64,000 nucleotides of DNA from Aureliella helgolandensis (GTDB taxonomy: Bacteria > Planctomycetota > Planctomycetia > Pirellulales > Pirellulaceae), in NCBI RefSeq assembly GCF_007752135.1, contig NZ_CP036298.1, forward strand, positions 6,386,859 to 6,450,858, in the 5' to 3' direction. Below are positions 30,376 to 46,593 of this stretch, piece after piece; the stretch's first letter is position 1, and every line of letters starts with the position of its first letter. A program made the translations under genes and the position numbers. The notes under the pieces are model-generated. The model worked only from the letters and a program-made list of their open reading frames with translations, ran no database searches and was not told where the DNA came from.

Positions 30376-30771
30376 AGAGTACGGCAAATGCTGCTCCTCT
30401 ATACCCGCTACTGCCTAAGGACAGTTTTCTGCCGCAAGCCGGGCATTCCACGCCAAAGTTGGAACGCCAATCGAGGATTTAGGCTAAATCGTTGAACCTT
30501 GGCCAATGTTACCCCCTCTCTGCTTGTGGCTCGAATCATTCCGTATCGTGGTTGGCGAGTCGCTTAAAATCGCAAGCCATTTGGCTCACTCAAGGAGTAG
30601 TGAAGGGCCCACACCGAATCAGGCTAGCCAGCAAAAATTTTCAGCAAACCCGAAAACGGTGGAGCAGACCACTCGCTCAATCAAGACCAACATCGATCGA
30701 CAAGCTATAATTGGACAGAGTCGAGATCACTTAGCGCCGAGTTGTAAACAGAACGGAGACCACCCCCTACA
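30376..30771. other. 396-bp intergenic region upstream of hflX
   Basis: No gene is seen; overlapping short frames are not convincing. It should carry the hflX promoter. A GGAG lies 13-16 bases before the hflX GTG. Confidence 0.4.
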
Positions 30772-32190
30772 GTGCAAGAACATCAAAGATCGCAGAGTGT
30801 ATCGCGGGAGCGCTGCGTACTTGCCCGCCTGATTAGCCCTAGTGATGCTTTCACCGAGAACCCCTTGGATGAAATCACAGGCTTAGCGGAATCTGCTGGT
30901 ACGGCAGTACTTGGCGGAGTTGTCCAGCGGCGTGAGACGCCAGCCCCCAAGACTTTTCTGGGCAAAGGCAAAGTGAGCGAACTGCGTCAGATGGTCGAGC
31001 TGCATTCAGCCGATGTCGTCATCTTCGACAATAATCTATCGCCCAGCCAAACGCGCAACTTGGAGAAGGAAACGGGCACGAAGGTTATCGATCGCACCGA
31101 GTTGATCCTTGACATCTTTGCCTCCAATGCGCGGACCCGAGAGGCTCGACTGGCCGTGGAACTCGCGCAACTCGAATACTCCCTCCCGCGGCTTAAGAGG
31201 TTGTGGACCCACCTTTCACGACAGACGATGGGCGTGGGTATGCGGGGCCCGGGAGAAAAGCAGTTGGAAGTGGACCGCCGCTTGGTCGAAAAGCGAATTC
31301 ACGAACTGAAGCAGGACCTTTCCAAAGTCGAGAAACGCAAGGAACGCGAGGTTGCGGGGCGTCGCGATTTCCTCACGGTGTCTCTTGTCGGATACACCAA
31401 TGCCGGCAAGAGCACGCTCATGAACGTCTTGACTGAAGCGGACGTGGAAGCGGTTGACAAATTGTTTGCCACCCTCGACACCCGGACCCGTCGGTGGACC
31501 TTACCAAGTTGGGGGCCAGTTCTGCTCAGCGATACCGTCGGTTTCATTCGCGATCTTCCGCATAATTTGGTGGCGAGTTTCCGAGCGACACTCGAGGAAG
31601 CGCGCGAAGCGGATCTGCTATTGCACGTGGCAGATGCTAGCAATCCTGCAGTCTTCGACCAAATCTCAGCCGTATATGGCGTGTTGCATGAGTTGGGTAT
31701 CGATGAGAAACAAACCTTGCTGGTCATCAACAAAATCGATGTCCCCGGTGCGGCCGAACGCATGCAAGCGGTTCAAAATCGCTACCCCCATTCGGTAGGC
31801 ATTAGTGCCAAGAGCCAACTGGGGCTGGATAGTTTTGCCAAAAAAGTTAGTCAAGCGTTGAGCGAAGGTTTTGTCACGCTCAGCATTCGACTCGATGTGG
31901 CTGACGGAAAGACCATGGCGTGGCTGGCTAAGGCGGGTGAAGTCGTCAGCAAGCAGTTCCATGACGATCACGTCGAAATCCACGCTCGCATGCCAGTGCG
32001 GCATGCGGGAAAACTGGCGCGGGAAGGACACCAATTCGAAGTCCTACGCGGGCGATTGCCCGATCCCAAACCCGAGGTAGAAACCTGGGAAGAACGACTG
32101 CCAACAACAGGCAGCATTTTGCCGACGACTGAATCCAGCGAATTGGAGAATCCGGTGCAATCCTGCTCGAACACGCGCACCGAGGAGTAA
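30772..32190 (+). CDS. hflX: Ribosome-associated GTPase HflX
   Basis: 472 residues from GTG, with GGAG upstream at slightly long spacing. HflX splits stalled ribosomes into subunits. Seen: the N-terminal HflX domain with LGGVVQRRETPAPKTFLGKGK and IFDNNLSPSQTRNLEK, the glycine-rich linker MGVGMRGPGEKQLEVDRR, then the GTPase G1 GYTNAGKST (about residues 207-215), G3 DTVGFIRDLP, and G4 NKID. Length is normal for the family (about 370-480), the extra being the C-terminal 60 residues after LRGRLPDP. No hfq or miaA gene is near, unlike the E. coli operon. Confidence 0.96.
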   Translation: MQEHQRSQSVSRERCVLARLISPSDAFTENPLDEITGLAESAGTAVLGGVVQRRETPAPKTFLGKGKVSELRQMVELHSADVVIFDNNLSPSQTRNLEKETGTKVIDRTELILDIFASNARTREARLAVELAQLEYSLPRLKRLWTHLSRQTMGVGMRGPGEKQLEVDRRLVEKRIHELKQDLSKVEKRKEREVAGRRDFLTVSLVGYTNAGKSTLMNVLTEADVEAVDKLFATLDTRTRRWTLPSWGPVLLSDTVGFIRDLPHNLVASFRATLEEAREADLLLHVADASNPAVFDQISAVYGVLHELGIDEKQTLLVINKIDVPGAAERMQAVQNRYPHSVGISAKSQLGLDSFAKKVSQALSEGFVTLSIRLDVADGKTMAWLAKAGEVVSKQFHDDHVEIHARMPVRHAGKLAREGHQFEVLRGRLPDPKPEVETWEERLPTTGSILPTTESSELENPVQSCSNTRTEE

Positions 32191-32652
32191 GGGGCCGCGT
32201 CAGCTATGGAAATGTTTGCGTTTCTGCAGCAGGCGGTCGTCTAAGCCTCCGGATTTAGACGGCTTGTTGACCGAAGGGCGTCTCCAGTCCTTACGCGGAG
32301 GAAACTCCCCGAATCGTCCCACTGCGGCGTTCTCCCTTGTCCCCGCAGCAAGTTACAATAGCAACCAGCCGTCACGCCGCAGGTAACTCTTGCAACAATC
32401 CATAGGGCTACCGTTCCAGCACTTGGGCAACGCTCCGCATGTATTGCAGCAACCGCTTACGGATCCCAAGTGGCTTGCTGGCTGAACGGACGGTGTGCTT
32501 CCTCAACAGGAATCGTCCTCACGGCCCCTGTCTTCCGCTTACAATCAGAAAACCTACGCTGAGAGATAGCAGGCCGTTGGGTCTGCAAGCGAGCCATTCC
32601 TCAATTCCACTGGTCAGCCGATAACACGCGGCAAAGTGGGCTGTGACAGAGC
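32191..32652. other. 462-bp region between hflX and the insertion sequence
   Basis: No gene is recognised. A 6-bp hairpin, GTCTAA/TTAGAC around 32249-32270, might end the hflX transcript. Nothing resembles a split gene interrupted by the insertion. Confidence 0.4.
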
Positions 32653-32679
32653 CCTAGTCCTTAAACAAGCGTACTCCAC
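32653..32679 (+). repeat. Left terminal inverted repeat of the IS1380 element
   Basis: CCTAGTCCTTAAACAAGCG; pairs with the right end at 34479-34505 with 5-7 mismatches. Confidence 0.8.
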
Positions 32680-32787
32680 TTGCTTGGCGGAGCATTTGCG
32701 CATAAAAAAACTCGAAATATCCTGCAGTTTGTTGGTCTTTTTTCACCAGCCCAACAAGCCGCTCGCTAACCACGATGGAGATTTCGA

Positions 32788-34311
32788 GTGAAGACGATTA
32801 AAGCAGATTTGATTCGAAAACGCAAACGACGTATCAAGAACAGGTTACAGAATTCGGCTGCTCACGATCGCGGACACCCCATGCTCAAAGGGGACAAGAT
32901 TGCGTATGAGCTGGCACAAAAAGCAGGCGGGACCGCCTACGGGGGCGTCGCCGCCATCCATCGATTCGCAAAGAAGATCGGACTGCCGAAACGGATCGAC
33001 GATGCCTTGCACTTGTTCAAAATCCATCGCCCCTATCATGAATCCGATCATGTTTTGAATTTGGCTTATAACGCGCTCTGCGGAGGAACTTGCTTGGAGG
33101 ACATTGAACTGCGCCGCAACGATGAGTCATTTCTCGATTCGATCGGAGCCGAAAGGATCCCCGATCCAACCACCGCAGGAGACTTCTGTCGCCGATTCGA
33201 TCCCTATCATATTAATCGTTTGCAAGATGCCTTCGATCAAGTTCGCTTGGATATCTGGCAACAACAAGACAATGCGTTCTTCGATCAAGCGACCATCGAG
33301 ATGGATGGCACGATCGTCGAAACAACCGGTCAGTGCAAAGAGGGAATGGACATCAGCTACAAAGGCATCTGGGGTTACCATCCGTTGGTGATAACGTTGG
33401 CCGAAACGGGCGAAGCTTTACGCCTGGTCAACCGTAGCGGCAATCGTCCCAGCCAAGAAGGCGCAGCCGAGCAAGCCGACACGGCGATCTCGCTTTGTCG
33501 CCAGGCAGGCTTTCGCCGAATCGTTCTGCGAGGCGACACCGCGTTCACTCAAACGATTCATCTGGACCGCTGGCACCGGGCAGGCGTGAAGTTCACCTTT
33601 GGCATGAAGGCCTACCCGGGACTCGTCGATATCGCGGAAAACGTGCAAATTGACGCTTGGAAGCAGTTGCCTCGCTCGCCCAAATACGCCCCGAATACAC
33701 CTGACCGAGACCGTCCTGAGAACGTGAAAGAACAGATTGTCCAGCTGCGTGGCTACCCCAACAAGCGTCTGACTTCAGAGTGGGTCACCGAGGTTCCTTA
33801 CAGCCCCACCGATTGCAAAGAGACCTACCGCTTAGTGATCCTTTGCAAAGAACTAGAAGTCACCAAGCAGGGTCGATTGTTCGACGACTGTCTGTACTTC
33901 TTCTACCTGACCAACGAAGCGGGCGATGTGCTCAGCACCAATGACGTTGTGTATGCCAGCAACGATCGCTGTGACCAAGAGAACATCTTGGCTCAGTTAA
34001 ATCAGTGCCGGGCGCTCCACGCGCCGGTGGACAACCTGGAATCGAATTGGGCTTACATGGTGATGACGGCCCTGTCGTGGAACTTGAAAGCGTGGATCGG
34101 ATTGAGCGTTCCGATAAACGGACGCTGGCGTGAGCAACACAAGCAAGAAGGTCGGGCTGTGATCCGCATGGAGTTCAAACAATTCGTAGAACAGTTCGTG
34201 CGACTTCCGGCACAGATCGTTCGCAGTGGACGGCAGTTGGTGGTCCGTCTGTTGTCATGGAGCGAATCTCTGCATGTGTTCAATCGCTGGGTTCGCTTCG
34301 CGCTTGAGTGA
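32788..34311 (+). CDS. IS1380-family DDE transposase
   Basis: 507 residues from GTG; GGAG lies seven bases upstream. DDE residues are assigned as D173 in TIEMDGTIVETTG, D250 in IVLRGDTAFTQ and E398 in DRCDQENILAQL, the pattern and spacing of IS1380/IS4-type transposases. The N-terminus is basic (RKRKRRIKNRLQN) and fits end binding. The frame is intact over the usual length, so the protein could be active. It is the only gene in the element. The C-terminal QLVVRLLSWSESLHVFNRWV is typical of the family. Confidence 0.95.
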   Translation: MKTIKADLIRKRKRRIKNRLQNSAAHDRGHPMLKGDKIAYELAQKAGGTAYGGVAAIHRFAKKIGLPKRIDDALHLFKIHRPYHESDHVLNLAYNALCGGTCLEDIELRRNDESFLDSIGAERIPDPTTAGDFCRRFDPYHINRLQDAFDQVRLDIWQQQDNAFFDQATIEMDGTIVETTGQCKEGMDISYKGIWGYHPLVITLAETGEALRLVNRSGNRPSQEGAAEQADTAISLCRQAGFRRIVLRGDTAFTQTIHLDRWHRAGVKFTFGMKAYPGLVDIAENVQIDAWKQLPRSPKYAPNTPDRDRPENVKEQIVQLRGYPNKRLTSEWVTEVPYSPTDCKETYRLVILCKELEVTKQGRLFDDCLYFFYLTNEAGDVLSTNDVVYASNDRCDQENILAQLNQCRALHAPVDNLESNWAYMVMTALSWNLKAWIGLSVPINGRWREQHKQEGRAVIRMEFKQFVEQFVRLPAQIVRSGRQLVVRLLSWSESLHVFNRWVRFALE

Positions 34312-34478
34312 GTGCCGAAATCACGAAGCTGAGGTATGTAAGCCTCAGTACCGCCGCCAGCCTCAAACCGCCCGCAGGGCACCTGACCGACCGATGCCTG
34401 AAATTCACGACCGAAAAATCCCCCGCTGGTCCCGCCAGCAGATCGCCGCTGCGCCTCCACCAACTGCCCAAAACACAT

Positions 34479-34505
34479 CCGGCATATACTTATTTAAGGC
34501 CTAGT
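34479..34505 (-). repeat. Right terminal inverted repeat of the IS1380 element
   Basis: Read on the leftward strand it gives ACTAGGCCTTAAATAAGTAT; matches the left end at 20 of 27 positions when both are extended two bases outward. Confidence 0.8.
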
Positions 34506-34656
34506 GCTTCGTTGATGCATGAATTAAGTTAGCGTGCCCCGCAGGAGACACGCGCCACTGGCGCTGCCCTCGGCAAAGGGCCTTCGTCAACGGCACTGCA
34601 CATGTCCGCCGAAGTCACCATACGACACAGAACTCCCACTAACATTGAAGCGCAGC

Positions 34657-36606
34657 ATGGCCGCCAACGCTAACGCCCCGTCGACGGCAACGTCATCTTC
34701 CCCAGCTGTCAGCGAGAACGCTGTTCCCCCCATGCCCGCTAGGCAAGAATACGAAACTAGCTTGCAGCAGGCCCGAACGGCGATTGCTCAGTTGCAAGCC
34801 CAGCAGTCGCAGATGGTATGGATCCGCACCGTGATCTTTATGATTGGACTCCTCTTTTTCATCCTCGGCTGGATGGATGAGGGACTGCGTCTGGTGCTCT
34901 TTAGCCTGGCGGCACTCACTGCGATTGCATTCCTGATCGCCATTGTTCGCCATGAACATCTGCGACTCAAACGGATCGAGCACGACTCCGATGCTGCTCT
35001 GTTTACGCATCTTCTAGCGAGATTGGATCGCAACTGGGGGGCGGTGCCGTCGCATCAGTTGCTCTCGGAATTTTCGGATATTGCGTTTGCGGATGATTTA
35101 GACGTAGCGGGGCCGGCGAGCCTACTATCGCTGCTGTCGCTCGCCGGCACCAAGCCCGGACGCCGCACTCTGCAAGCCTGGGTGGTTGCCCCCACGACTT
35201 GGCCGGAGGTCAAGGCGCGACAACACGCGGTGCAGCACCTGAGAGACTCGCGTCCACTGCGATTGTCCATCCTAAGAACGGTGCAAGCGAGTAGCGACGG
35301 AACAGAAGATGTTTATGGGCTGCCTCAGTGGGCAGCAACCCCTAGCTGGCTTCAGCAACATTCCCTTGCTTACGGACTTAGTTTTCTAGGACCAAGTATG
35401 GTGGTGTTGGGAATCCTGGTCGCCATCTGCGGGGCCATGGTCGACCAACCAACTCTACTGACCGTAGGAGGTGGGTTGCTCGGCGCAGGCTTCTTAACCA
35501 ATCTGCTGGTTACGGTGTTTTGGGGTAGTTGGATCCATGGAATTTTCCAGCAGATTACCGGCCAACACCAAGCAGTCTATCGCTTCTCCGAGGTCTTCAG
35601 CTCCTTTGCCACCCTGCCTCCCGACGGAGGGTTGCTCGATCATATTCGACAGGTGGCCGTCGAGAACTCTAACTGCGCCCAACGCGGCTTCGCTAAACTC
35701 ACCTGGCTTGTCCGGCTGGCCAATTTGCAACGCGATCCCATTCTCTACTTTGTCTATCTGGCATTGCAGCTCTTTGCCATGTGGGATTTTCGCATCCTTG
35801 GAATGCTTGAAAAGTGGAAGACGGAGTTCGGCGACGAAGTCCATGTTTGGTTCGAGGCCTTAGGAACCTGTGAGGCGTTGGTCAGTGGTGCAACTCTAGC
35901 TGATGAGTACCGCGAGTGGACCTACCCCGCCCCACCCGCCGACAGTCAAAACCTGCTGCTTGCAGAATCCTTAGGACACCCGCTTCTGCAGGACGCCGCA
36001 CGCGTGCCGAACGATCTGGCACTCACGCGCTCGCACCCATTGCTATTGGTGACGGGGTCAAACATGGCGGGCAAAAGCACGTTCATGCGGTCGGTCGGCG
36101 TCAATCTCCTCTTGGCTCGCACCGGCAGTCCAGTCTGCGCGAATCGATTAGAGACACCACTCTACAGTTTGGCGTCCAGCATTCGAGTTCGAGACAGTCT
36201 TAAGGATGGCGTTTCGTTCTTCATGGCCGAACTGCAGCGGCTCAAGGAAGTGGTTGACGAAGCGGAACAACACTCCCACTCCGATGGTCCACCAATACTG
36301 TTCTTATTGGATGAAGTCCTGCAGGGCACGAATTCCCGCGAGCGTCAAATTGCGGTAGCTTCGGTGGTGGAAAAGCTGATCGGTTTCGGCGCTACCGGAT
36401 TCCTCTCGACTCACGACCTCGATCTGGCGTCAGCACCCGAAGTGCGTCAGGTTAGCCAAATTGTTCATTTCCGCGAATACTTTGAGAACCGCAATGGCAA
36501 GGAAGTCATGCGATTTGACTACAAGATGAAGCCAGGGCCAACCCCTACCACTAACGCCCTGAAGCTATTGAGCCTAGTTGGCTTGGCACCGTCAGATTCC
36601 GCTTGA
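34657..36606 (+). CDS. MutS-like ATPase with membrane segments, lacking mismatch-recognition domain
   Basis: 649 residues from ATG 34657 (the frame opens at a GTG at 34534 with an unconserved Pro/Arg-rich lead). The C-terminal third is a MutS ABC ATPase: Walker A TGSNMAGKST at about 465-475, Walker B LFLLDEVLQGTNSRER at about 547-560, and the LSTHDLDLAS histidine loop. A MutS core/lever-like region precedes it. The mismatch-binding domain I (with its Phe-x-Glu) is absent, so it should not recognise mismatches. Instead there are hydrophobic helices at about 54-72 and 77-97, and another pair at about 238-290, so it seems membrane-attached. Related proteins occur in Bacteroidetes and planctomycetes with no assigned function. 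Monocistronic; convergent with the next gene. Confidence 0.85.
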   Translation: MAANANAPSTATSSSPAVSENAVPPMPARQEYETSLQQARTAIAQLQAQQSQMVWIRTVIFMIGLLFFILGWMDEGLRLVLFSLAALTAIAFLIAIVRHEHLRLKRIEHDSDAALFTHLLARLDRNWGAVPSHQLLSEFSDIAFADDLDVAGPASLLSLLSLAGTKPGRRTLQAWVVAPTTWPEVKARQHAVQHLRDSRPLRLSILRTVQASSDGTEDVYGLPQWAATPSWLQQHSLAYGLSFLGPSMVVLGILVAICGAMVDQPTLLTVGGGLLGAGFLTNLLVTVFWGSWIHGIFQQITGQHQAVYRFSEVFSSFATLPPDGGLLDHIRQVAVENSNCAQRGFAKLTWLVRLANLQRDPILYFVYLALQLFAMWDFRILGMLEKWKTEFGDEVHVWFEALGTCEALVSGATLADEYREWTYPAPPADSQNLLLAESLGHPLLQDAARVPNDLALTRSHPLLLVTGSNMAGKSTFMRSVGVNLLLARTGSPVCANRLETPLYSLASSIRVRDSLKDGVSFFMAELQRLKEVVDEAEQHSHSDGPPILFLLDEVLQGTNSRERQIAVASVVEKLIGFGATGFLSTHDLDLASAPEVRQVSQIVHFREYFENRNGKEVMRFDYKMKPGPTPTTNALKLLSLVGLAPSDSA

Positions 36607-36657
36607 GCCAATTCCAGGAGCCAATTCCTGGGACGCTCGGGCGATCCGCCAAGTCCG

Positions 36658-37653
36658 TCACCCCGAATGCGCACTGAGCATTCGTTGGAGGTCTTGGTCG
36701 GACGTCCACAATTGAGAGAGATCCAATTCACTCAAACGAGCCGCACCGCACCGCTGCATCGACTGACTGACGCTCAACAACTGCCTTCCTAGCATCTGCT
36801 CCAAGTCGTGCAGAGGGGCGACTTCTGCTTGGTTCGCCACCGCGATACCACTCAACATGCCACTTCCCATCGCCACGTTGCCGCGAGATTTCGTCGGCTT
36901 GGGCAACAGTGTTTCGATCAACGGGTCGATGGCAACACAGGATGCCCCGAGTGCGATTAGCTTGGCGACCGCATCCATACTGCGTAGTGGTAGATCGACA
37001 AAAATCGGCAAGCCATCCAGTCGATTCTCCTTGCACGCTCGCCTGGCTAGTAGCAAACCTTGAAGATGCAATCTGGTGAAAACGCCAGCCCCGGCTTCGA
37101 GAGTCAGAAAATCGACTCCGGCATCCAAGGCGGCTTGGACATCATCGCGCTGCGCCTCCAGCGGTAGACCAACGCCGATGGGGACCTCACCTCCACTCGC
37201 GCACCGGACGGCGCTGACAAAAGAAGCGAGTCGGTTGCGACCAACTTCGGAAGACCACCCCCACCGGCCAGTAGCCCGCTCGCGCATTATCAGTTCGAAG
37301 GCATCTGCAGTATGTATTTCCGTCGGATCGAGAGGTTCGTTGATGAACTGCTGGGCAAACCGCAGGGGGATGGAGGCGGTGGGCAGCGACTCCAGCTCCG
37401 CAACGGGACTGTAGACGGGCAGTCGCTGCTTGCACAGCAAGCTACAAAAGGAACGCCAGTGTGGCCCCAATTGCCGCGAGCTTGTATTTCGAACGATCAA
37501 TGGACTCGGAAGCAACAGGCTACGTTTCCCAGCCTGGCATTTCAAGTCGATCGCCATACTTTGGGCATTCCCGTTGGGAACGGGAGCAAGCGGCGTTAAA
37601 GCACCTTGCAGGATATAGATTGAATCCAAAATCGATGTTGCGGTACTGACCAT
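36658..37653 (-). CDS. Decayed glutamate-synthase (FMN-barrel) paralogue, GlxD/MgsC-like
   Basis: 331 residues from ATG 37653 (TTG upstream rejected). The second half follows the FMN-domain of glutamate synthase and of GlxD/MgsC strand for strand: GGEVPIGVGLPL...DAGVDFLTLEAGAG, then LLLARRACKENRLDGLPIFVD, AKLIALGASCVAIDP and, at the C-terminus, LEQMLGRQLLSVSQSMQRCGAARLSELDL, which matches the helical tail after the Fe-S site. But the FMN-phosphate Gly-Gly-x-Gly-Gly-Thr-Gly is reduced to LEAGAGVFTR and the Cys-x5-Cys-x4-Cys cluster is missing, so FMN/Fe-S chemistry is unlikely. It is 5 bp after a GXGXG protein gene, the usual partner domain, in a kinase/glycosyltransferase operon. The homology is my reading by eye and should be tested. 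Confidence 0.6.
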   Translation of the reverse strand: MVSTATSILDSIYILQGALTPLAPVPNGNAQSMAIDLKCQAGKRSLLLPSPLIVRNTSSRQLGPHWRSFCSLLCKQRLPVYSPVAELESLPTASIPLRFAQQFINEPLDPTEIHTADAFELIMRERATGRWGWSSEVGRNRLASFVSAVRCASGGEVPIGVGLPLEAQRDDVQAALDAGVDFLTLEAGAGVFTRLHLQGLLLARRACKENRLDGLPIFVDLPLRSMDAVAKLIALGASCVAIDPLIETLLPKPTKSRGNVAMGSGMLSGIAVANQAEVAPLHDLEQMLGRQLLSVSQSMQRCGAARLSELDLSQLWTSDQDLQRMLSAHSG

Positions 37654-37658
37654 TTGCT

Positions 37659-38321
37659 TCAAACTCCCTTGGCGCGGAAGGCTTTAAAATCTTTACCATC
37701 GCTTTTGATGCCAGCCCGAGCCAACAACAAGCTCAACCGCAAGGCATCCGCATCCTTCAAACGCACGCCACGCACACACTCCGCGATGGATTTCACTTCA
37801 CCACGAACGTAGATCACACCGCCTTGCATCCCTAGGCCCAATTCATCGCCAGCACCGTTGCCCAAGACCAGAGTTCCGCTTTGCATCGCAACTCCCGCTC
37901 GATTTCCAACCGTACTACGCACGAATACATCAGCACCGCGCAACCCTAGTCCACAGCTGCCACCAGCTTTTCCGAGGACGAAAATAAACCCTCCCGCTGC
38001 GTACGCTCCCAAGGACTCCCCAGCGGCGCCTTGAACGGAAATCGCTCCCGACAGCATCGAATGCCCACAGCAATCGCCAACATTTCCACTAATCTTGTAA
38101 CTTGCTTCAGCGGAGAGCAGGCCGACAAAATCTCCCACAGTCCCTTCAATTTCCAAATTCAAGGGAAGTGTTGTTCCTGCGCCGACTGCGTTCAACTTGC
38201 GCTGTGGATCAGCTTGTAAAACGACATTCTGCTCGGCAACACATACACGCAGCCGCGCGGCCAAATCCTCGGACGTCATATTTTGCAATGAAATTTCATT
38301 GGAGAATTCACTACTGCTCAC
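37659..38321 (-). CDS. GXGXG-domain protein (glutamate synthase C-terminal / GlxC-MgsB-like)
   Basis: 220 residues from a GTG at 38321, with GATAGGTAG upstream; a TTG two codons earlier and an ATG at 38279 are alternatives. The body is a right-handed beta-helix of about 20-residue turns with repeated Gly-x-x-Gly: EGTVGDFVG, SGNVGDCCG, QGAAGESLG, LGKAGGSCG, RSTVGNRAG, LGNGAGDELG. This is the GXGXG domain of glutamate synthase alpha, GlxC/MgsB and FwdC/FmdC. The ending VRGEVKSIAE fits the GlxC/MgsB type. In those enzymes it bridges a glutaminase and an FMN subunit. Here the neighbour downstream is a decayed FMN subunit and no glutaminase gene is in the window. Six bp separate it from the glycosyltransferase gene upstream. 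Confidence 0.8.
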   Translation of the reverse strand: MSSSEFSNEISLQNMTSEDLAARLRVCVAEQNVVLQADPQRKLNAVGAGTTLPLNLEIEGTVGDFVGLLSAEASYKISGNVGDCCGHSMLSGAISVQGAAGESLGAYAAGGFIFVLGKAGGSCGLGLRGADVFVRSTVGNRAGVAMQSGTLVLGNGAGDELGLGMQGGVIYVRGEVKSIAECVRGVRLKDADALRLSLLLARAGIKSDGKDFKAFRAKGV

Positions 38322-38327
38322 AACCAA

Positions 38328-39527
38328 CTACCTATCTCTTTGAAAAATCTCACCAAACAATTCTCGCATTGTCTCTAACCAGGTCGGCAGGGCATGGTAC
38401 TGCTCAACATACTGCTCCGCCAATTTGGCGCGTTGCGTACCAGATGCAGGATCTTCCAGGCAATCGATCATGCCATCTGCCAAAGTTCGCGGATTGGCAA
38501 CCGGGACGCACACCCCTCGAGTATTCTGTCCCAACAACTCCCGCATCGAACCGCCCGCATCTGTCGAAAGAATTGGAGTTCCCAAAACCATGGCCTCCAA
38601 GGCCACGTTGGCCAGTCCCTCATACTCACTCGGAATACAGAGTAAGTCGGCGGACCGCAGTTGAGGATAAGGATTCTCCAAGTAGCCGCTAAAAAAGACG
38701 GAGGATTCCAGGTGTAGTTGCCGAGCGAGTGCTTCGAGCTTGGGGCGATCGGGTCCATCGCCCACCAGTTGAAGCTCGATGTTGTAGCCCTGCTCACGGA
38801 CCAGTGAAACCGCTCGGAGCGCCTCCTGCTGTCCCTTTTCAGCAGACAAGCGGCCCACGACGAGTACTCGGAAAGGGGTTGCAGTCGAATGAATCTTGGG
38901 AGCCGGAAGCAAGCCCGGTTCGCTGGCTGCGGCAGGGGGCCCAGGACTCGCCTGTTGACTTGAGAGTCTAATCCCCTCAATATCCACGGGGCTCGGGATG
39001 ACGCGGATTGCCTCGCGGTCGAGCCGATAGTATTCAGCGGCATCGATAGCTACGGTATTGCTAACCGCAACGGCAACGGCCCTTGGGTCGGCATAGGCCC
39101 GGCGCAATAGTCGACGCTTGAGCCAATGAAAATGCTCGGGACTGCTGGCGAAATCGCGGCTAGGAGGACTCACAATCACCGAGACGCGTGGCACTCCAGC
39201 GCTTCGACAAGCGGGGGCCGTCACAAGAGTCATATGAAAAGTACGATCGTAGACCAGGTCAATTTGAGCGTCCGCCAGCGTCTGCTTCAAATGCGCAACT
39301 TGGCGACGGTGGATTCCACCCGGCCAGAATCGCGTCTTCTCCGAAATGTCTTCCCAGAAACTGGTGACAGGAATCCGCGTTGGAATACGATCTAGATACA
39401 CCCCACGCCGATAATGCAAGTAGAGATGCGATTCGAATTGCGGTGGTTCAAGTTGGGTTAACAGTTGCCATAGCTGTCTTTCACTGCCGCCACCATCGAG
39501 CGAACCACTACATCCCAATACACGCAT
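38328..39527 (-). CDS. Glycosyltransferase, family GT4
   Basis: 399 residues from ATG 39527; the frame continues upstream into the kinase gene's 3' end, so the longer start is rejected. MRVLGCSGSLDGGGSERQL is the normal N-terminus, with the Gly-Gly-x-Glu-Arg donor/acceptor loop. The C-terminal Rossmann domain shows VGRLSAEKGQQEALRA, LVGDGPDRPKLEALA and the ex7e motif in PSEYEGLANVALEAMVLG. It would transfer a sugar from a nucleotide donor with retention. It is 13 bp after a Ser/Thr kinase gene and 6 bp before a GXGXG gene, not in a polysaccharide cluster, so its acceptor is unclear; glycosylation of a small metabolite or protein is possible. Confidence 0.9.
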   Translation of the reverse strand: MRVLGCSGSLDGGGSERQLWQLLTQLEPPQFESHLYLHYRRGVYLDRIPTRIPVTSFWEDISEKTRFWPGGIHRRQVAHLKQTLADAQIDLVYDRTFHMTLVTAPACRSAGVPRVSVIVSPPSRDFASSPEHFHWLKRRLLRRAYADPRAVAVAVSNTVAIDAAEYYRLDREAIRVIPSPVDIEGIRLSSQQASPGPPAAASEPGLLPAPKIHSTATPFRVLVVGRLSAEKGQQEALRAVSLVREQGYNIELQLVGDGPDRPKLEALARQLHLESSVFFSGYLENPYPQLRSADLLCIPSEYEGLANVALEAMVLGTPILSTDAGGSMRELLGQNTRGVCVPVANPRTLADGMIDCLEDPASGTQRAKLAEQYVEQYHALPTWLETMRELFGEIFQRDR

Positions 39528-39540
39528 GCTTACCCGGTCC

Positions 39541-41505
39541 CTACTCCGATTCCAACTTGGCACGCAATCGCTTGAGTTGTTGCCCGGCCCATGGTTTATC
39601 GCCATAGAGGAGCTCGAGATCTTGGAAATAGGTTTGCAGTCGTTCGGGAGAGAGTGATTTCTCTGCCGATTGAATCAGATTGGCAAGCTGTGTGGCTGCC
39701 TGCGGTAATTCAGCCCCCCCGACGGGCAATTGGACACGAGCGGCGTACTCCGCCAATTCGACCAATCGCGCCTCATGCGCCGGTAGGTTGGCAACTTGCC
39801 CGAAGATCGACAAAAAGGCAGCTAGCTTCTCCTGCCCGACTTCGAAGCTTTCCATCCTGGCGGTCATGCATTCGAGGAACCCTTGTTCGGCGGCCGACAA
39901 TTCCTCGGCTCCCCCATTGCGTGAGGCGCGTCGTCTGAGGACTCGGGTCAAGCGCACGAGTTCCGATTCGTCGATCAGCGCCTGCACTTCGGAACTACGT
40001 TCATCGCCAGCAAAACGGCTTACAAACTCTTCCATTTCGGTGCGCATTTCGATGAGCTGGGCATCATCACCAGATTCAGCTGCAACGAGGATTTGTCCAT
40101 AGAGTTCGTCTGCGGATCTCGGTTGCAACATCCACACCAGGAATCCAAGGCTTCCGAACAGCAACACGATCATCCCGCCAATCGATCCCCACTGTAGCCA
40201 ATCGGCCCTCGAATCTTCGACCTCCTCCTCGATGCCAAATTTGAAATCGCGCGGCTGCGCCTCTTCAACGGGAGTGTAGTGGGTTGGCCCGCCGCTGGCG
40301 GGCGGTTCCTCGAGCAGCTCTTGCGATTCGAACTCGCCAGTAAACTCACTCTCCTGTACCGAATTTTTGGCGTCGCCTAGCGAGGTTGGAGGTGACTTGG
40401 CAATCGACGGAACGGAGAAATCCGCGGGAGCCAGCATGGTTTGTTGCTCATGAGTCTCCAAGGGGATTTCGCTAGACGGCGATAGAACCTCTGCACCGGA
40501 CGCGGCATCCTCCCCTCCCACGGCTGTGACGCGCAAATCGCGATCGTCCATATCCGAGAGATCTAAGGATGTTAAGTGAGTCCCGATAGCAGTCTTCCCT
40601 CCTGCGGGATCCGGCTCAGTCGGGCTGGCTAGACTCGCTTGGGTGGAGTCTTTCAGGCCCCCTGAGGAACGCATTTTTTTCAATCCCTGCTGAAGTGCTT
40701 TGAGGCGGTTGCCCAGCACTAACGCGTTGGGGGGCCGTTTCGAAGGCGACTTCTCAAGCAATTCATGGATTAACTCGACTAGTTCTGGAGGGACTCCAGC
40801 GACACGTTCTGCCAGGTTGGGAGGTGGGTTGTAACGCACCGCATAGAGGACTTCAGGCACACTCTTTCCACCAAAGGGAGCCCGACCACACAGCAGCGCA
40901 TAAAGCACGCCACCCAAACTGTAGAGGTCACTACGAACGGTTACGATCTTGCCTTCGGCCTGTTCAGGAGGCATGTAATCGGCGGTGCCAATTACCGATC
41001 CGACCGCAGTCATCTCGGAAAGCCCGAAGAGTTTGGAGATTCCGAAATCGGCAAGCTTCACGTGCCCACTTTTAGTAAGCAACAGATTCGCAGGCTTCAA
41101 ATCCCGATGGATGATGCCCCAATCGTGCGCATGCTTCAAGGCCGCAGAAGTCTCGATTCCGATTTGCAGCACCTGCTCCCAGGGTAGCTGTCCACTCTGT
41201 CGCAAGTGATCGTGCAGAGAGACTCCGTCCACATACTCCATCGTATAGAACAACATTCCACGCTCTTCGCCAGCGCCTGCGAAACGCACAATATTGGGAT
41301 GGCTTAGACTATGGAGCGTCGTGATCTCGGCGTGGAAACGACGGCGAAAGCGTGCCGAATTTGCAACAGCAGCAGCGATCACTTTGATCGCCATCACCTT
41401 GCCACTCCGGTTGTGGACCCCCTTATAGACAGTCCCCATCCCTCCCCGCCCTAAAATGCGCTCAACATGATAGGGACCAAGGTACTCAAATTCGGGCTGA
41501 TTCAT
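39541..41505 (-). CDS. Transmembrane Ser/Thr protein kinase (Hanks type)
   Basis: 654 residues from ATG. Kinase domain about 11-275 with GRGGMGTVYKG (P-loop 19-29), K41, HRDLKPAN (133-140), DFG (153-155) and PPEQ in the activation/P+1 region: an active PknB-type kinase. A charged Ser/Glu-rich linker (280-435) follows, one membrane helix at 438-460, and an extracytoplasmic C-terminal part of about 190 residues with mostly helical sequence. No PASTA repeats. It is the first gene of a tight leftward unit of four (13, 6 and 5 bp gaps) and may regulate the products of that unit. The hairpin upstream at 41590 separates it from eno. Confidence 0.95.
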   Translation of the reverse strand: MNQPEFEYLGPYHVERILGRGGMGTVYKGVHNRSGKVMAIKVIAAAVANSARFRRRFHAEITTLHSLSHPNIVRFAGAGEERGMLFYTMEYVDGVSLHDHLRQSGQLPWEQVLQIGIETSAALKHAHDWGIIHRDLKPANLLLTKSGHVKLADFGISKLFGLSEMTAVGSVIGTADYMPPEQAEGKIVTVRSDLYSLGGVLYALLCGRAPFGGKSVPEVLYAVRYNPPPNLAERVAGVPPELVELIHELLEKSPSKRPPNALVLGNRLKALQQGLKKMRSSGGLKDSTQASLASPTEPDPAGGKTAIGTHLTSLDLSDMDDRDLRVTAVGGEDAASGAEVLSPSSEIPLETHEQQTMLAPADFSVPSIAKSPPTSLGDAKNSVQESEFTGEFESQELLEEPPASGGPTHYTPVEEAQPRDFKFGIEEEVEDSRADWLQWGSIGGMIVLLFGSLGFLVWMLQPRSADELYGQILVAAESGDDAQLIEMRTEMEEFVSRFAGDERSSEVQALIDESELVRLTRVLRRRASRNGGAEELSAAEQGFLECMTARMESFEVGQEKLAAFLSIFGQVANLPAHEARLVELAEYAARVQLPVGGAELPQAATQLANLIQSAEKSLSPERLQTYFQDLELLYGDKPWAGQQLKRLRAKLESE

Positions 41506-41589
41506 TGAACTTAGGGTCCCACGCGCAGAAAATCGATGCGAATTCCAACCGTGCGTTAGGAGGAGGAGGGCACGGCTGGAAATTGAAAC

Positions 41590-41626
41590 AGTGCAGGTTT
41601 AATTCAGTTTAAACTAAACCTGCACT
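41590..41626 (-). terminator. Perfect 12-bp hairpin after eno
   Basis: AGTGCAGGTTTA (41590-41601) and TAAACCTGCACT (41615-41626) pair perfectly; the 13-base loop contains the palindrome GTTTAAAC. It lies 68 bp after the eno stop and 85 bp before the kinase start, both leftward genes. There is no T-tract, but the stem is strong and should end or insulate the eno transcript. Confidence 0.75.
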
Positions 41627-41693
41627 TCTCGCATTGAATCGCGGTAAGCCAAATGGCCCGAGAGAATCCGGCAAGCGGAAATTCAGCGACGCC

Positions 41694-43085
<1,392 letters not shown>

Positions 43086-43200
43086 TTACCGCGATCTTCA
43101 TCGAGCCGCTTACGACCCACCCTAGAGAGGGAGTGCGAACCGAAAGTTACTCTGGAACGTAATCCACGATGCAATTTCTCGTTGGAAGGGACGAATGCTG

Positions 43201-43237
43201 AGGTAGGCCAGCCGAGAGTTCTAGCCGTCGCCTACCT
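43201..43237 (+). promoter_or_regulatory. Possible leader hairpin upstream of ribE
   Basis: AGGTAGGC (43201-43208) and GCCTACCT (43230-43237) pair perfectly around a 21-base loop, followed by TTAAAAATTA. It lies 92 bp upstream of ribE. It could be a transcript end from the left, an attenuator or a binding site; it does not match the FMN riboswitch. Confidence 0.35.
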
Positions 43238-43260
43238 TAAAAATTACCCCGCTCACGTAT

Positions 43261-43298
43261 AGTATGAGTAACCACAGTTAGTATGAGTAACCACAGTT
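43261..43298. repeat. 19-bp tandem duplication upstream of ribE
   Basis: AGTATGAGTAACCACAGTT occurs twice head to tail with no mismatch, 31 bp before the ribE start. Such a position is typical of a recent duplication or a pair of protein-binding sites in a promoter. Confidence 0.9.
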
Positions 43299-43328
43299 TC
43301 CAATTGTTTTCTGTTTGAGCGGGCGTCT

Positions 43329-43940
43329 ATGTTTTCCGGTTTGATCGAAGCGAAACCCACCGTATTGCGAATCGTCCCAGAAACAGGCGGAATTCGCTTA
43401 GTGTTGCAGCGCCCCGAGAGTTTCGAAGATCTCAGCATGGGGGCTAGCATTGCGGTCCAAGGTTGTTGTCTAACCATTGTTGCTTTTTCGAGCACGGAGA
43501 TGGAGTTCCAAGCCGGAGAAGAAACGCTCTCCAAGACAACTCTGCGCCACTTTCAGCCTGGAGATGAAGTAAACTGTGAACGGGCGTTGGCGTTGGGAGA
43601 CCGACTGGGGGGGCACTTGGTGACAGGCCATGTGGATGGCACGGGGAAACTTCGCAGCCGTAGCGACGAAGCCGAGTGGTCCGACATGGTCTTTGAATCC
43701 CCCCCCGAACTCTTGAGACAGATGGCTTCGAAGGCCTCCATCACTGTCGATGGGGTGAGTTTAACTCTTGTTGACGTCACCGCAGAGACATTTTCAGTTG
43801 CCCTCATCCCTCACACCCTTCAAGAAACCAGCTTGGGCAGCTTGGCTTGTGGCAGTAGGGTCAATCTAGAAACGGATTTGCTGGCCAAGTATGTTCAGCG
43901 ACAACTTCAATTCACTATGCAGGGCAATTCGCTCAATTAA
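43329..43940 (+). CDS. ribE: Riboflavin synthase, alpha chain
   Basis: 203 residues from ATG. It dismutates two 6,7-dimethyl-8-ribityllumazine molecules to riboflavin. The two tandem beta-barrel halves are visible: MFSGLIEA ... GASIAVQGCCLTIV ... LGDRLGGHLVTGHVDGTG, and repeated in the second half as ITVDGVSLTLVDV ... IPHTLQETSLG ... VNLETDLLAKYV. Length is normal. It is followed after 3 bp by rsmA and then by a Ser/Thr kinase gene, so the three form an operon. No other rib gene is nearby. Confidence 0.97.
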   Translation: MFSGLIEAKPTVLRIVPETGGIRLVLQRPESFEDLSMGASIAVQGCCLTIVAFSSTEMEFQAGEETLSKTTLRHFQPGDEVNCERALALGDRLGGHLVTGHVDGTGKLRSRSDEAEWSDMVFESPPELLRQMASKASITVDGVSLTLVDVTAETFSVALIPHTLQETSLGSLACGSRVNLETDLLAKYVQRQLQFTMQGNSLN

Positions 43941-43943
43941 ACA

Positions 43944-44873
43944 ATGTCGGAACGTCAAACACTTAGCTACCTACAGCAGCGCTTCGCGTCGTCTCGGATT
44001 CAACCGCAGACACGTTTTGGCCAAAATTTCTTGATCGATCTCAACTTGGTTAACCTCATCGCCTCGACGGCTGAGCTGGGGCCACGAGATGTGGTCCTGG
44101 AAGTTGGCACCGGCATGGGCTCGCTAACGACCATCATGGCAGCCGAGGCGGGGCATGTTGTCACGGTGGAAATCGACCACTACCTAGCCCCCCTAGCTCG
44201 TGAGGAGTTTGAAACGCTGGATAACGTGACCCTCTTGGAACAAGACGCGTTGAAGAGCAAGAACAAGTTGCACCCTCAAGTGATCGAGACGCTACGGGAA
44301 AAGGTTGCACAAATTCCCGGTGGCCGCATTAAACTGGTAGCCAATCTACCGTACAACGTCGCCACACCGATCATTTCCAATTTGCTCGACATGGACCCGT
44401 GGCCGGTGCGGATGGTAACGACCATCCAGCGAGAATTGGCAGAGCGGATCGTAGCGCGTCCGCGAACAAAGGATTACAGCGCCTTGACCGTCTGGATCCA
44501 GGCGCAGTGTCAAGCAGAGATTGTGCGGATCATGCCGCCCAGCGTATTTTGGCCACCGCCGAAGGTCGAATCTGCCATCCTGGATATCCGGCCCCAAAAA
44601 GTCATGCGGAAGCGGATCGTCGACCCCGCTCATTTCCATAGCTTGGTGCGTGGCATTTTCATCCACCGACGCAAATTTCTACGATCGGCACTATTCAGTG
44701 CCGTCAAAGATGTGCTCACCAAGCCGGAGGTCGATCAAGTACTAGCGCAGATGGAACTCGATGCGAACACTCGTGCCGAACAGCTGACGCCGCAACAATT
44801 GCTCGATCTAACCGATCTCGTGCGGCTCATGGCTGCCGAGAAAGCATCGACGCCAACCGTCGAGGATCGGTAG
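43944..44873 (+). CDS. rsmA: 16S rRNA (adenine1518/1519-N6)-dimethyltransferase
   Basis: 309 residues from ATG, 3 bp after ribE. Also called KsgA. It dimethylates two adenines near the 3' end of 16S rRNA using SAM. Seen: TRFGQNFLIDLNLVNLIA at the N-terminus, SAM-binding EVGTGMGSLT, the acidic EIDHYLAPLA, and the catalytic NLPYN, followed by the C-terminal helical domain with the ALTVWIQAQC and PPSVFWPPPKVESAIL blocks. Complete, slightly longer than E. coli (273). The next gene starts 4 bp later. Confidence 0.97.
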   Translation: MSERQTLSYLQQRFASSRIQPQTRFGQNFLIDLNLVNLIASTAELGPRDVVLEVGTGMGSLTTIMAAEAGHVVTVEIDHYLAPLAREEFETLDNVTLLEQDALKSKNKLHPQVIETLREKVAQIPGGRIKLVANLPYNVATPIISNLLDMDPWPVRMVTTIQRELAERIVARPRTKDYSALTVWIQAQCQAEIVRIMPPSVFWPPPKVESAILDIRPQKVMRKRIVDPAHFHSLVRGIFIHRRKFLRSALFSAVKDVLTKPEVDQVLAQMELDANTRAEQLTPQQLLDLTDLVRLMAAEKASTPTVEDR

Positions 44874-44877
44874 CCCA

Positions 44878-46593
44878 ATGAGTAGTGATCTTCCGTCCAA
44901 AAACCTGAATGCCATAGGTCCCTCCCTAGGGGATTCCATCGGTGCGTACCGCATTGAACGGAAACTGGGAAGTGGCGGCATGGCAGAGGTCTTTTACGGA
45001 GTGCACGCAGAACTCAATCGGCCGGCCGCGATTAAGGTTTTAAGGGCATCGCTGGCCGCCGACGAAGTTCATCTACAGCGTTTCATGCTCGAGGCACGTG
45101 CCGCTGCCGCCTTGATCCATCCCAACATCGTCCAGGTCTACGATGTCGGCAAGGACGGGCAATACCGCTATATTGCCCAGGAATACATTCCCGGAAGCAA
45201 TTTGCGACAGTACATTTCAAGCCCAGACGCTGCTTCGGGCAGCAAGCCTCTGCCGGTACAGACCTTGATCCGCGAAACGGTCGAGCTCGGTTTGGATGGA
45301 ACCGGTGTCTCAACGGCCGCTCCGCGTGCGGTGGACTCACCGAATCCCGAAGTGCCCAGTTCTCCGCTTTCGGCCGTCACCGATCGGCAGCTCCCCATTA
45401 CCGAAACGCTGAGCATCCTTCTGCAGGTTTTGGCCGCGCTCAGCAAGTCGGCTGCCAGCGGGATTGTGCATCGTGACATCAAGCCTGAAAACATCATGCT
45501 GACGATCGACGGCGAAGTGAAAGTTGCCGATTTTGGACTCGCGCGAGTTCTGCTGGGCGACGATCCGCAGCTAACCCGAGCGGGCACCACACTCGGTACT
45601 CCCATGTACATGAGCCCTGAACAAATTCAGGAGGGAGTCGTCGACGTGCGGAGCGATTTGTATTCGCTGGGGGTGACTCTGTACCATATGCTTTGCGGTC
45701 GTCCACCGTTCCTCGGTGAGACTCCACTGGCGCTGGCCATGCAACACGTCCAAGCTCCCTTGCCCGACATTCGTCAATGGCGCACCGAGCTTCCCGAATC
45801 CCTCGTGACACTCGTCGAACGACTATTAGCCAAGTCGCCGCAAGACCGCTTCAGCAGTCCCATGGAGACGCTCGAGTTCCTGCGTCAACATCGCAACGGG
45901 GACTTGGCGGTTTACTGGCCAGAACAAACAGTGCCATTGCCTGGCGCCGCGGTGCGTTCGGGGACCGGGCCCATGCAAGCGACCATGCAACTCGAAGCTC
46001 GGCTGCGCAAGAAGCGCAGGAGCCTCGCCGGGCTCGTGGGCATGACATTATTGGGCCTTGTCGCAGTCACGGGCTCCTTTGGCGTAGGCGCGGCTCTCGC
46101 TTATAAGCAAACCAACCTGTTTGACACCACTGCGGACGATAACCTGCCAGAAATCGATCCCAAGGGAAGTCCCGCAGAGCAGTACAACGCTGCGCTATTA
46201 AGCCCTGATAAGAACGCAGCCCTGTTTTTGGCGGTAGGACGCTACTTTCCCCCCAGCGAGAATGACATTAATCTCTATTGGGGAAGTCTCGCTTCCTTGC
46301 AATTGGCGCGCATCTATAGCCAAGCGCCGAACACCCGCCCCCAAGCCATCGAATTGCTCCGGGACATCACCGAGGAACCCAAAAATGTGGATGTCATACG
46401 CGCGCTGGCTTGGCTAGAGCTGGCTGAAATCGAACTGGGCCAAGACAAGTCGAAAGAAGCACAGCAAGCGATCCAAGAAGCGCGACGCATCGAACAGGGA
46501 GGCGGAGTTGGACGCCGACGAATGCGGGAGCTTCTCAGCGGCTGCATCCAAGTCATGTCACCGGAGCTGCAAGCGCTATGGACGCCGCAGTAA
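44878..46593 (+). CDS. Transmembrane Ser/Thr protein kinase with kinase-domain insertion
   Basis: 571 residues from ATG, 4 bp after rsmA. Kinase motifs: GSGGMAEVFYG (31-41), K53, HRDIKPEN (198-205), DFG (218-220), SPEQ. Between the hinge and the HRD helix there is an extra stretch of about 58 residues (115-172), Ser/Pro-rich, not found in the typical PknB. A single membrane helix lies at about 384-408 and a short C-terminal domain (411-571) with TPR-like alpha pairs (SLASLQLARIY ... ALAWLELAEIELG). It probably reports on envelope or periplasmic conditions. Its linkage with riboflavin synthase and RsmA is unusual. Active by motifs. Confidence 0.95.
   Translation: MSSDLPSKNLNAIGPSLGDSIGAYRIERKLGSGGMAEVFYGVHAELNRPAAIKVLRASLAADEVHLQRFMLEARAAAALIHPNIVQVYDVGKDGQYRYIAQEYIPGSNLRQYISSPDAASGSKPLPVQTLIRETVELGLDGTGVSTAAPRAVDSPNPEVPSSPLSAVTDRQLPITETLSILLQVLAALSKSAASGIVHRDIKPENIMLTIDGEVKVADFGLARVLLGDDPQLTRAGTTLGTPMYMSPEQIQEGVVDVRSDLYSLGVTLYHMLCGRPPFLGETPLALAMQHVQAPLPDIRQWRTELPESLVTLVERLLAKSPQDRFSSPMETLEFLRQHRNGDLAVYWPEQTVPLPGAAVRSGTGPMQATMQLEARLRKKRRSLAGLVGMTLLGLVAVTGSFGVGAALAYKQTNLFDTTADDNLPEIDPKGSPAEQYNAALLSPDKNAALFLAVGRYFPPSENDINLYWGSLASLQLARIYSQAPNTRPQAIELLRDITEEPKNVDVIRALAWLELAEIELGQDKSKEAQQAIQEARRIEQGGGVGRRRMRELLSGCIQVMSPELQALWTPQ

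Follow-up and report, generated by a model that had tools for sequence, protein, structure and literature searches.

A GXGXG-barrel gene pair of the Pirellulaceae is probably a cofactor-free relative of glutamate synthase subunits

What work could be left for a glutamate-synthase-type barrel whose cofactor motifs have gone and whose gene closes a membrane kinase-glycosyltransferase operon? The question is raised by four minus-strand genes of Aureliella helgolandensis (family Pirellulaceae), located in a 64,000-nucleotide stretch of DNA (the window) that corresponds to positions 6386859-6450858 of the 8.44-Mb single-contig genome:

39541..41505, minus strand: transmembrane Ser/Thr protein kinase, 654 amino acids, first in the unit (Pfam Pkinase, E 1.1e-55)
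38328..39527, minus strand: glycosyltransferase of family 4 (GT4), 399 amino acids, ATG at 39527 (Glycos_transf_1, E 6.3e-34)
37659..38321, minus strand: GXGXG beta-helix protein of the MgsB/GlxC/FwdC superfamily, 220 amino acids, GTG at 38321 (PF01493, E 2.6e-8)
36658..37653, minus strand: glutamate-synthase-type barrel without flavin mononucleotide (FMN) or Cys motifs, 331 amino acids, ATG at 37653 (hhalign 99.6%, E 1e-24)

With starts at 41505 (ATG), 39527 (ATG), 38321 (GTG) and 37653 (ATG) the genes are separated by 13, 6 and 5 bases, and the choice of earlier in-frame starts would make the four genes abut or overlap. An earlier description of the locus made from the DNA letters alone (the sequence-only reading) had proposed this arrangement of four leftward genes; its coordinates, frames and gene identities proved right when the reading frames were rechecked and Pfam and profile comparisons were run. 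The kinase carries HRDLKPAN and DFG motifs and a single hydrophobic segment from residue 442. We propose that the two downstream genes, below called the pair, probably code for both subunits of a Pirellulaceae 'pseudo-glutamate synthase' that lacks cofactors and would act as a binding or regulatory scaffold.

Glutamate synthase and GlxBCD/MgsABC are textbook units of glutaminase, channel and flavin barrel. Glutamate synthases deliver ammonia from glutamine to 2-oxoglutarate, with FMN on the barrel domain and a 3Fe-4S cluster (excerpt of PMC8097209). The mgsABC-gmaS genes are described as encoding the same parts as glutamate synthase on separate genes, with best hits for the Methylobacterium MgsA, B and C proteins of 300, 225 and 442 amino acids (excerpt of PMC6237917). 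Operons resembling mgsABC-gmaS occur in other members of the family and served as the intact comparison; Pfam identified GATase, GXGXG and Glu_synthase genes in one of them (L126) and Gln-synt in another (L127), and the remaining assignments were made by BLAST.

The window barrel matched no Pfam or NCBIfam family at E <=1, PF01645 included. A single-sequence search of the PDB returned IMP (inosine monophosphate) dehydrogenase as the best hit at E 0.056, and a profile of 14 family barrels matched IMPDH1 at E 8.5e-6 and lactate oxidase at E 1.1e-4. When the 14 pair barrels were aligned by hhalign with 10 FMN-type barrels of related genomes, the probability was 99.6% (E 1e-24, 341 columns); the window barrel and its two nearest named relatives alone gave 96.0% (E 3.8e-9) over only 137 columns, and enolase, a control that is also a TIM (triosephosphate isomerase) barrel, gave 0.1%. 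In the larger alignments the match extends from the first strand to the helical tail. The profile of the 10 reference barrels matches solved glutamate synthases (best E 4.8e-54), and the only one of them scanned, that of L126, is recognized as Glu_synthase at E 5e-94. In a tree, all 62 pair barrels fall on one side of a 100%-supported branch that separates them from 37 FMN types, a long branch for which the tree program issued a long-branch warning. Judged by these profile comparisons, the barrel is clearly a homologue of the FMN subunit of glutamate or N-methylglutamate synthase, as the sequence-only reading had anticipated. An IMPDH-type enzyme was considered and set aside: IMP dehydrogenase and the FMN-dependent 2-hydroxyacid oxidases belong to the same barrel superfamily, and the IMP dehydrogenase hit is a partial superfamily match over only about 90 positions (178-264).

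The GXGXG protein passes the PF01493 cut-off marginally (34.1 versus 32.5 bits), whereas its score with the NCBIfam FwdC model TIGR03122 lies far below the cut-off (66.3 versus 130.65 bits). Comparison of the GXGXG family with MgsB-type proteins by hhalign gave 100% (E 6e-45), and the window protein keeps 16 of the 20 glycines conserved among 12 MgsB types. The best PDB match is 9sw6_K, at E 9.3e-8 with the single sequence and 4e-27 by profile. In the GXGXG tree the pair proteins stand next to the MgsB types, with one pair row (L007) not placed among the others, and a FwdC-like group, to which five loci were assigned with their neighbours uninspected, lies outside both. FwdC and FhcC are likewise GXGXG repeat proteins. 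A FwdC-type C1 function is not favoured, given the tree position and the sub-cut-off TIGR03122 score; no Fwd or Fhc subunit gene was found among the scanned window neighbours, where the GXGXG gene is flanked by the GT4 and barrel genes. A second GXGXG protein of the same genome, encoded at 596 kb, groups as FwdC-like.

The alignments thus establish that the pair proteins share ancestry with the GXGXG and FMN subunits of MgsBC/GlxCD-type enzymes, and the gene order, GXGXG followed by barrel, is that of MgsABC/GmaS, GlxBCD and GltB. Unlike those systems, the pair has a barrel of only 331 amino acids that no longer shows the FMN, substrate-loop and Cys motifs, and unlike MgsABC/GmaS its unit includes no glutaminase or GmaS gene and has other neighbours. 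Motif retention was scored in the 62 pair barrels and 37 FMN types, a division made by E-value with manual moves: L163, L164 and L166 were added to the pair group because their barrels adjoin a pair-type GXGXG gene, and L125 was transferred to the FMN group on length and motifs. The tree and motif sets began as 150 barrel and 131 GXGXG frames and comprised 99 and 85 after identical or contained ones were dropped. At 56 positions conserved in at least 90% of the 37 FMN types, the FMN types keep a mean of 54.5, the pair barrels a mean of 11.9 and the window barrel 14. The lysine that is invariant in the FMN types (37/37) occurs in none of the pair barrels, the window's included. The D-G-x-x-G-x-T positions are kept in 0, 3, 1 and 0 of the 62, the GxGG positions in 1, 0 and 0, and the M, S, G and S of the first loop in 1, 7, 1 and 9. 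The three-Cys pattern is found in 36 of 37 FMN types versus 0 of 62 pair barrels, and the Cys of column 434 is likewise absent from all 62. In the window barrel itself the Lys, DGxxGxT, GxGG and QxAKxGxGG motifs are gone save for single letters. As far as alignment can tell, the FMN loops, the conserved lysine and the iron-sulfur ligands have been lost from the pair barrels. These counts and the 341-column alignment bear out the earlier impression that the FMN loop and Cys cluster are missing while strands and helical tail can be traced.

Other positions have been kept or gained. Pro51, Arg150, Asp181, Lys231, Gly236 and Ala237, presumed to be structural, are mostly retained. Residues new in the pair (window numbering) include Asp243, which 58 of the 62 carry at a site that is Ala, Gly or Ser in every one of the 37 FMN types, and Trp131, present in 57 of 62. 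No glutaminase was found in the four-gene unit by Pfam and NCBIfam, in line with the sequence-only reading, and a BLAST search that used a single GATase seed (E <=1e-20) found no GATase gene next to the mapped pairs; both negatives apply to these neighbourhoods, the rest of the genome not having been searched. With neither an ammonia source nor flavin motifs nor cluster ligands in the unit, glutamate-synthase chemistry by the known mechanism would be impossible. Two other barrels were encountered. The MgsC-type barrel of a GATase-GXGXG-barrel-glutamine synthetase (GS) operon (L130, 5899-7227, plus strand) seems to have lost its iron-sulfur centre, since Asp replaces its cluster cysteines, and its other FMN-type motifs are still present. 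In the window, 25 kb from the unit, positions 9990-11594 (plus strand) encode a 534-amino-acid FMN-type Glu_synthase protein with FMN and Cys motifs intact by eye.

The GXGXG and barrel genes are nearly always kept or absent together. Among 241 Pirellulaceae genomes, 107 have both genes, 1 only the barrel, 2 only GXGXG and 131 neither, so that a pair-type barrel is present in 108 and a pair-type GXGXG in 109. The underlying profile searches found barrels in 135 genomes at E <=1e-6, FMN types included, and GXGXG proteins in 120 at E <=1e-25; in the eleven genomes beyond the 109 the match is weaker, of MgsB type or unclear, and no such match was seen alongside the pair-type one in any of the 109, in per-genome searches that score a limited number of candidates and may miss second copies. 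The pair-type count takes in short or broken GXGXG matches in G237, G300, G348, G358 and G398. A weak barrel match does adjoin the GXGXG gene in G125 and G339, which make up the 'GXGXG only' group; G459, the sole 'barrel only' genome, has a completeness of 83%. The two genes lie side by side in 84 of the 107 genomes and apart in 23: in 8 of these the distance could be measured within a single contig, and in the other 15, all drafts, the genes fall on separate contigs. Linkage was taken by eye from match positions because the open reading frame (ORF) maps, which drop ORFs overlapping a longer one by more than 30%, hid the GXGXG gene in some loci (e.g., L115 and L157). In a phylum sample of 392 genomes, 50 had a barrel match at E <=1e-5. 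The 28 extra-family hits that were fetched (L075-L102) group with the FMN types in the tree, and no pair-type barrel was seen outside the Pirellulaceae, hits not fetched being judged by length and aligned range only.

Selection on the pair was estimated as the ratio of nonsynonymous to synonymous substitution (dN/dS) in 16 close comparisons, which overlap in their members and of which 10 are among five loci. The values are 0.061-0.162 for the barrel (dS 0.17-1.92) and 0.050-0.142 for GXGXG, and open frames of pair length are present in the loci examined. The barrel is not decaying, and the pair is under purifying selection where this is measurable. The term 'decayed', applied to the barrel by the sequence-only reading, therefore fits the cofactor site; it does not fit the protein itself, which is under purifying selection in relatives and kept across the family. 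Selection thus still preserves a pair whose cofactor motifs have gone, which probably has a new, undescribed job. The GXGXG-barrel pair is an autonomous module, and just under half of the family genomes (107/241) retain it despite the erasure of most known catalytic and cofactor motifs.

In the mechanism that we favour, GXGXG and barrel would still form a complex of the ancestral type. The mouth of the barrel would have been re-lined, with Asp replacing Gly, Ala or Ser and a new Trp added, and would now bind another ligand or a protein, so that the complex could serve, without redox chemistry, as a scaffold for binding or regulation. The pair would, in the window's genus, be a stable member of an operon with a membrane kinase and a glycosyltransferase, usually also with a MurJ-like flippase. 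The loss of motifs, together with selection and co-retention of the two genes, lends good support to the suggestion of a repurposed scaffold made in the sequence-only reading. The pair would offer an example from nature, open to experiment, of how an enzyme of several subunits became a pseudoenzyme, and its function could be sought in about 110 genomes, through a residue signature and in several operon settings. Among the titles listed in searches of the open-licence literature, none concerned a cofactor-less glutamate-synthase-like GXGXG-barrel pair.

Several points weigh against this proposal. The case for a complex and for a re-lined pocket draws on alignment and on what is known of FMN loop positions in the family, and losing the known FMN motifs does not prove that flavin binding has gone. 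Single letters also survive: of the 62 pair barrels, 31 retain one of the GG(I)R glycines, 42 the Asp after it and 29 the Gly of CPxG. A pair-specific Pro found in 59 of 62 is Ser134 in the window barrel. All dN/dS comparisons lie outside the window's genus, whose members diverge too far to enter, and the pair-type cut-offs were set after scores had been seen, in 241 genomes that are not independent of each other. The neighbours of the pair, described below, share no theme and so indicate no ligand or pathway, and other clades argue against service to the envelope as a general role.

A more specific form of the proposal, which we entertain tentatively as possible, holds that an ammonia-channelling redox enzyme became a cofactor-free, two-subunit receptor or scaffold. 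Its quaternary core would have been kept, its mouth re-lined by Asp and Trp, and it would have joined a variety of operons (for purine salvage, for arginine synthesis, with topoisomerase, or of the kinase-glycosyltransferase-flippase kind), acting on or reporting to different machinery in each.

The barrel might instead be an enzyme once more, with a non-flavin active site made of Asp243, Trp131, Arg150 and Asp181 at its mouth and GXGXG as a structural partner. The FMN loops lie on the catalytic face of the barrel, and the pair-specific conserved residues stand in or beside segments aligned to those loops; the strong purifying selection and the metabolic nature of several neighbouring genes also agree with this view. 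However, few residues exceed 90% among the 62 pair barrels (Pro51, Arg150, Asp181, Gly236, Asp243, Trp131 and one Pro), and of these Pro51, Arg150, Asp181 and Gly236 are likely structural because they are conserved in the FMN types too. We therefore regard a new enzymatic activity as somewhat unlikely and retain the non-redox scaffold as the preferred reading.

Whether the scaffold belongs to its operon was examined through gene neighbourhoods. The order kinase, GT4, pair is present in 8 of 8 spanning same-genus contigs, the window included and L022 counted although its kinase gene is truncated by the contig start; five additional same-genus contigs end too early to judge. Orthologues of the kinase occupy the same position in 7 other same-genus contigs at 40-58% identity, and GT4 orthologues (39-51%) were found in the operons of 8 relatives, seven of the same genus and L025. 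The four-gene set is more than chance, and the four genes do occur together in relatives as the sequence-only reading had required. In most relatives a MurJ-like gene of about 500 amino acids occupies the GT4/GXGXG junction:

38322..38327, minus strand: 6-base GT4/GXGXG junction of the window
L020, 6828-8369: MurJ-like gene
L023, 9263-10804: MurJ-like gene
L024, 9585-11243: MurJ-like gene
L106, 7945-9450: MurJ-like gene
L108, 3597-5177: MurJ-like gene

Five of the 8 spanning same-genus operons thus have the gene at this junction; the window, L022 (genome G208) and L107 (G304) lack it. It also precedes GXGXG in the cut contigs L103 and L105. The L020 protein matches Pfam MurJ at E 2.1e-45 and falls below the NCBIfam MurJ cut-off. 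No strong MurJ match was found anywhere in the window's genome and no MurJ remnant at 38322-38327; flippase matches elsewhere in this genome, G304 and G208 are weak only. MurJ was rejected as a required part since it is missing from 3 of the 8 spanning operons. Pfam MurJ at E <=1e-10 is found in just 17 of 80 family genomes, and a GT4 tree with weak support requires three changes to account for the three loci without MurJ. murJ can be deleted in Planctopirus limnophila (excerpt of PMC10632474), and its loss within the phylum is thus not alarming. The MurJ gap of L022 (2380-2812) contains a short element in two near-identical direct copies and one inverted copy, with no MurJ remnant.

These observations lead to a second alternative, in which the four genes form one envelope system: the kinase would signal to the scaffold, and the scaffold would steer the glycosyltransferase and, where present, the MurJ-like flippase. 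The order is kept in all eight spanning contigs even with unit proteins only 31-58% identical to the window's, and genus g19 carries an E1-E2 ATPase gene followed by GT4, MurJ-like, GXGXG and barrel genes, with no kinase. Genome contents in the window's genus speak against a fixed unit. The pair is present in 13 of its 15 genomes; G237 (97% complete) and G299 (only 73% complete) have the pair without a GT4 match at E <=1e-40, and G303, an 80% complete draft, has GT4 with no pair found. G140, which has neither pair nor GT4, fits either view. Moreover, 94 of the 107 genomes with both genes lie outside the window's genus, where neighbours are specific to clades: purine nucleoside phosphorylases, argB-argF and topA. 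Across 78 mapped loci, which include FMN types and controls and whose neighbours were labelled by BLAST to Pfam-named seeds, the gene directly before GXGXG is a purine nucleoside phosphorylase in 18, argF in 3 and topA in 3; other neighbours of the pair encode a metallophosphoesterase, an SHD1-domain protein, a cytochrome and unlabelled genes. Tandem purine nucleoside phosphorylase genes precede the pair in several genera (L026, L033, L035, L110, L111, L139, L168, L170 and others), and one such gene remains by GXGXG after the barrel has moved in L154, L158, L160, L165 and L171.

The neighbour tabulation that the sequence-only reading had recommended thus yielded settings that differ by clade, with the kinase-GT4 setting belonging to the window's genus. 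Its suggestion that the pair stands under kinase and sugar-transfer control goes beyond what the neighbourhoods show: different genes adjoin the pair in other genera, 23 of the 107 genomes have its two genes apart, and G237 and G299 lack a GT4 match at E <=1e-40. We consider a single envelope system unlikely. As a guess from gene order, the scaffold may serve the cell envelope in the window's genus; since operon partners share no pathway, no envelope role is proposed beyond it.

Under a third alternative, GXGXG would work with a true FMN barrel encoded elsewhere (the 534-amino-acid Glu_synthase protein or GltB), and the pseudo-barrel would regulate that enzyme. The window's genome does encode both candidates and GXGXG keeps most of its glycines, but GXGXG and the pseudo-barrel co-occur in 107 of the 110 genomes having either, and we regard this arrangement as quite improbable. 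That the two proteins are functionless, decaying remnants of an mgsBC operon, as the loss of FMN, Cys and glutaminase parts might suggest, is hardly credible given the low barrel dN/dS in relatives (0.061-0.162), the open frames and the retention of both partners even after their genes have separated, and the pseudogene reading was rejected on low dN/dS and co-retention.

An anti-phage defence system was also considered. The kinase matched 35 PADLOC models (best PD-T4-6, E 9e-83), and no PADLOC match at E <=1e-3 was obtained for GT4, GXGXG or the barrel. PADLOC kinase-type defence models match many ordinary Ser/Thr kinases. In this comparison the unit showed nothing beyond the kinase matches to kinase models, and the defence reading is not favoured.

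Scans of the surrounding DNA added one feature:

41590..41626, minus strand: hairpin of 17 pairs located between the enolase and kinase genes, where the enolase transcript may end (pattern scan)

Terminator-like sites overall are not enriched (5 versus a shuffle mean of 6.1), and the promoter scan gave a single site, on the opposite strand, versus a shuffle mean of 2.3. No RNA element scored above the Rfam cut-offs in 30000-46000, only short repeat pairs were found in 32000-43200, and the window contains no tRNA. The enolase gene (41694-43013) lies upstream of the kinase, and downstream of the barrel is an oppositely oriented MutS-like gene. Between the latter and an HflX-like GTPase gene is a DDE transposase gene (32788-34311, plus strand), which was likely inserted in the window's genome, since the HflX-like and MutS-like genes closely adjoin without it in L020 and L024. 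Beyond enolase, 43329-46593 (plus strand) carries genes for riboflavin synthase, a KsgA-like protein and another Ser/Thr kinase; relatives of these genes lie on the opposite side of the operon in L107.

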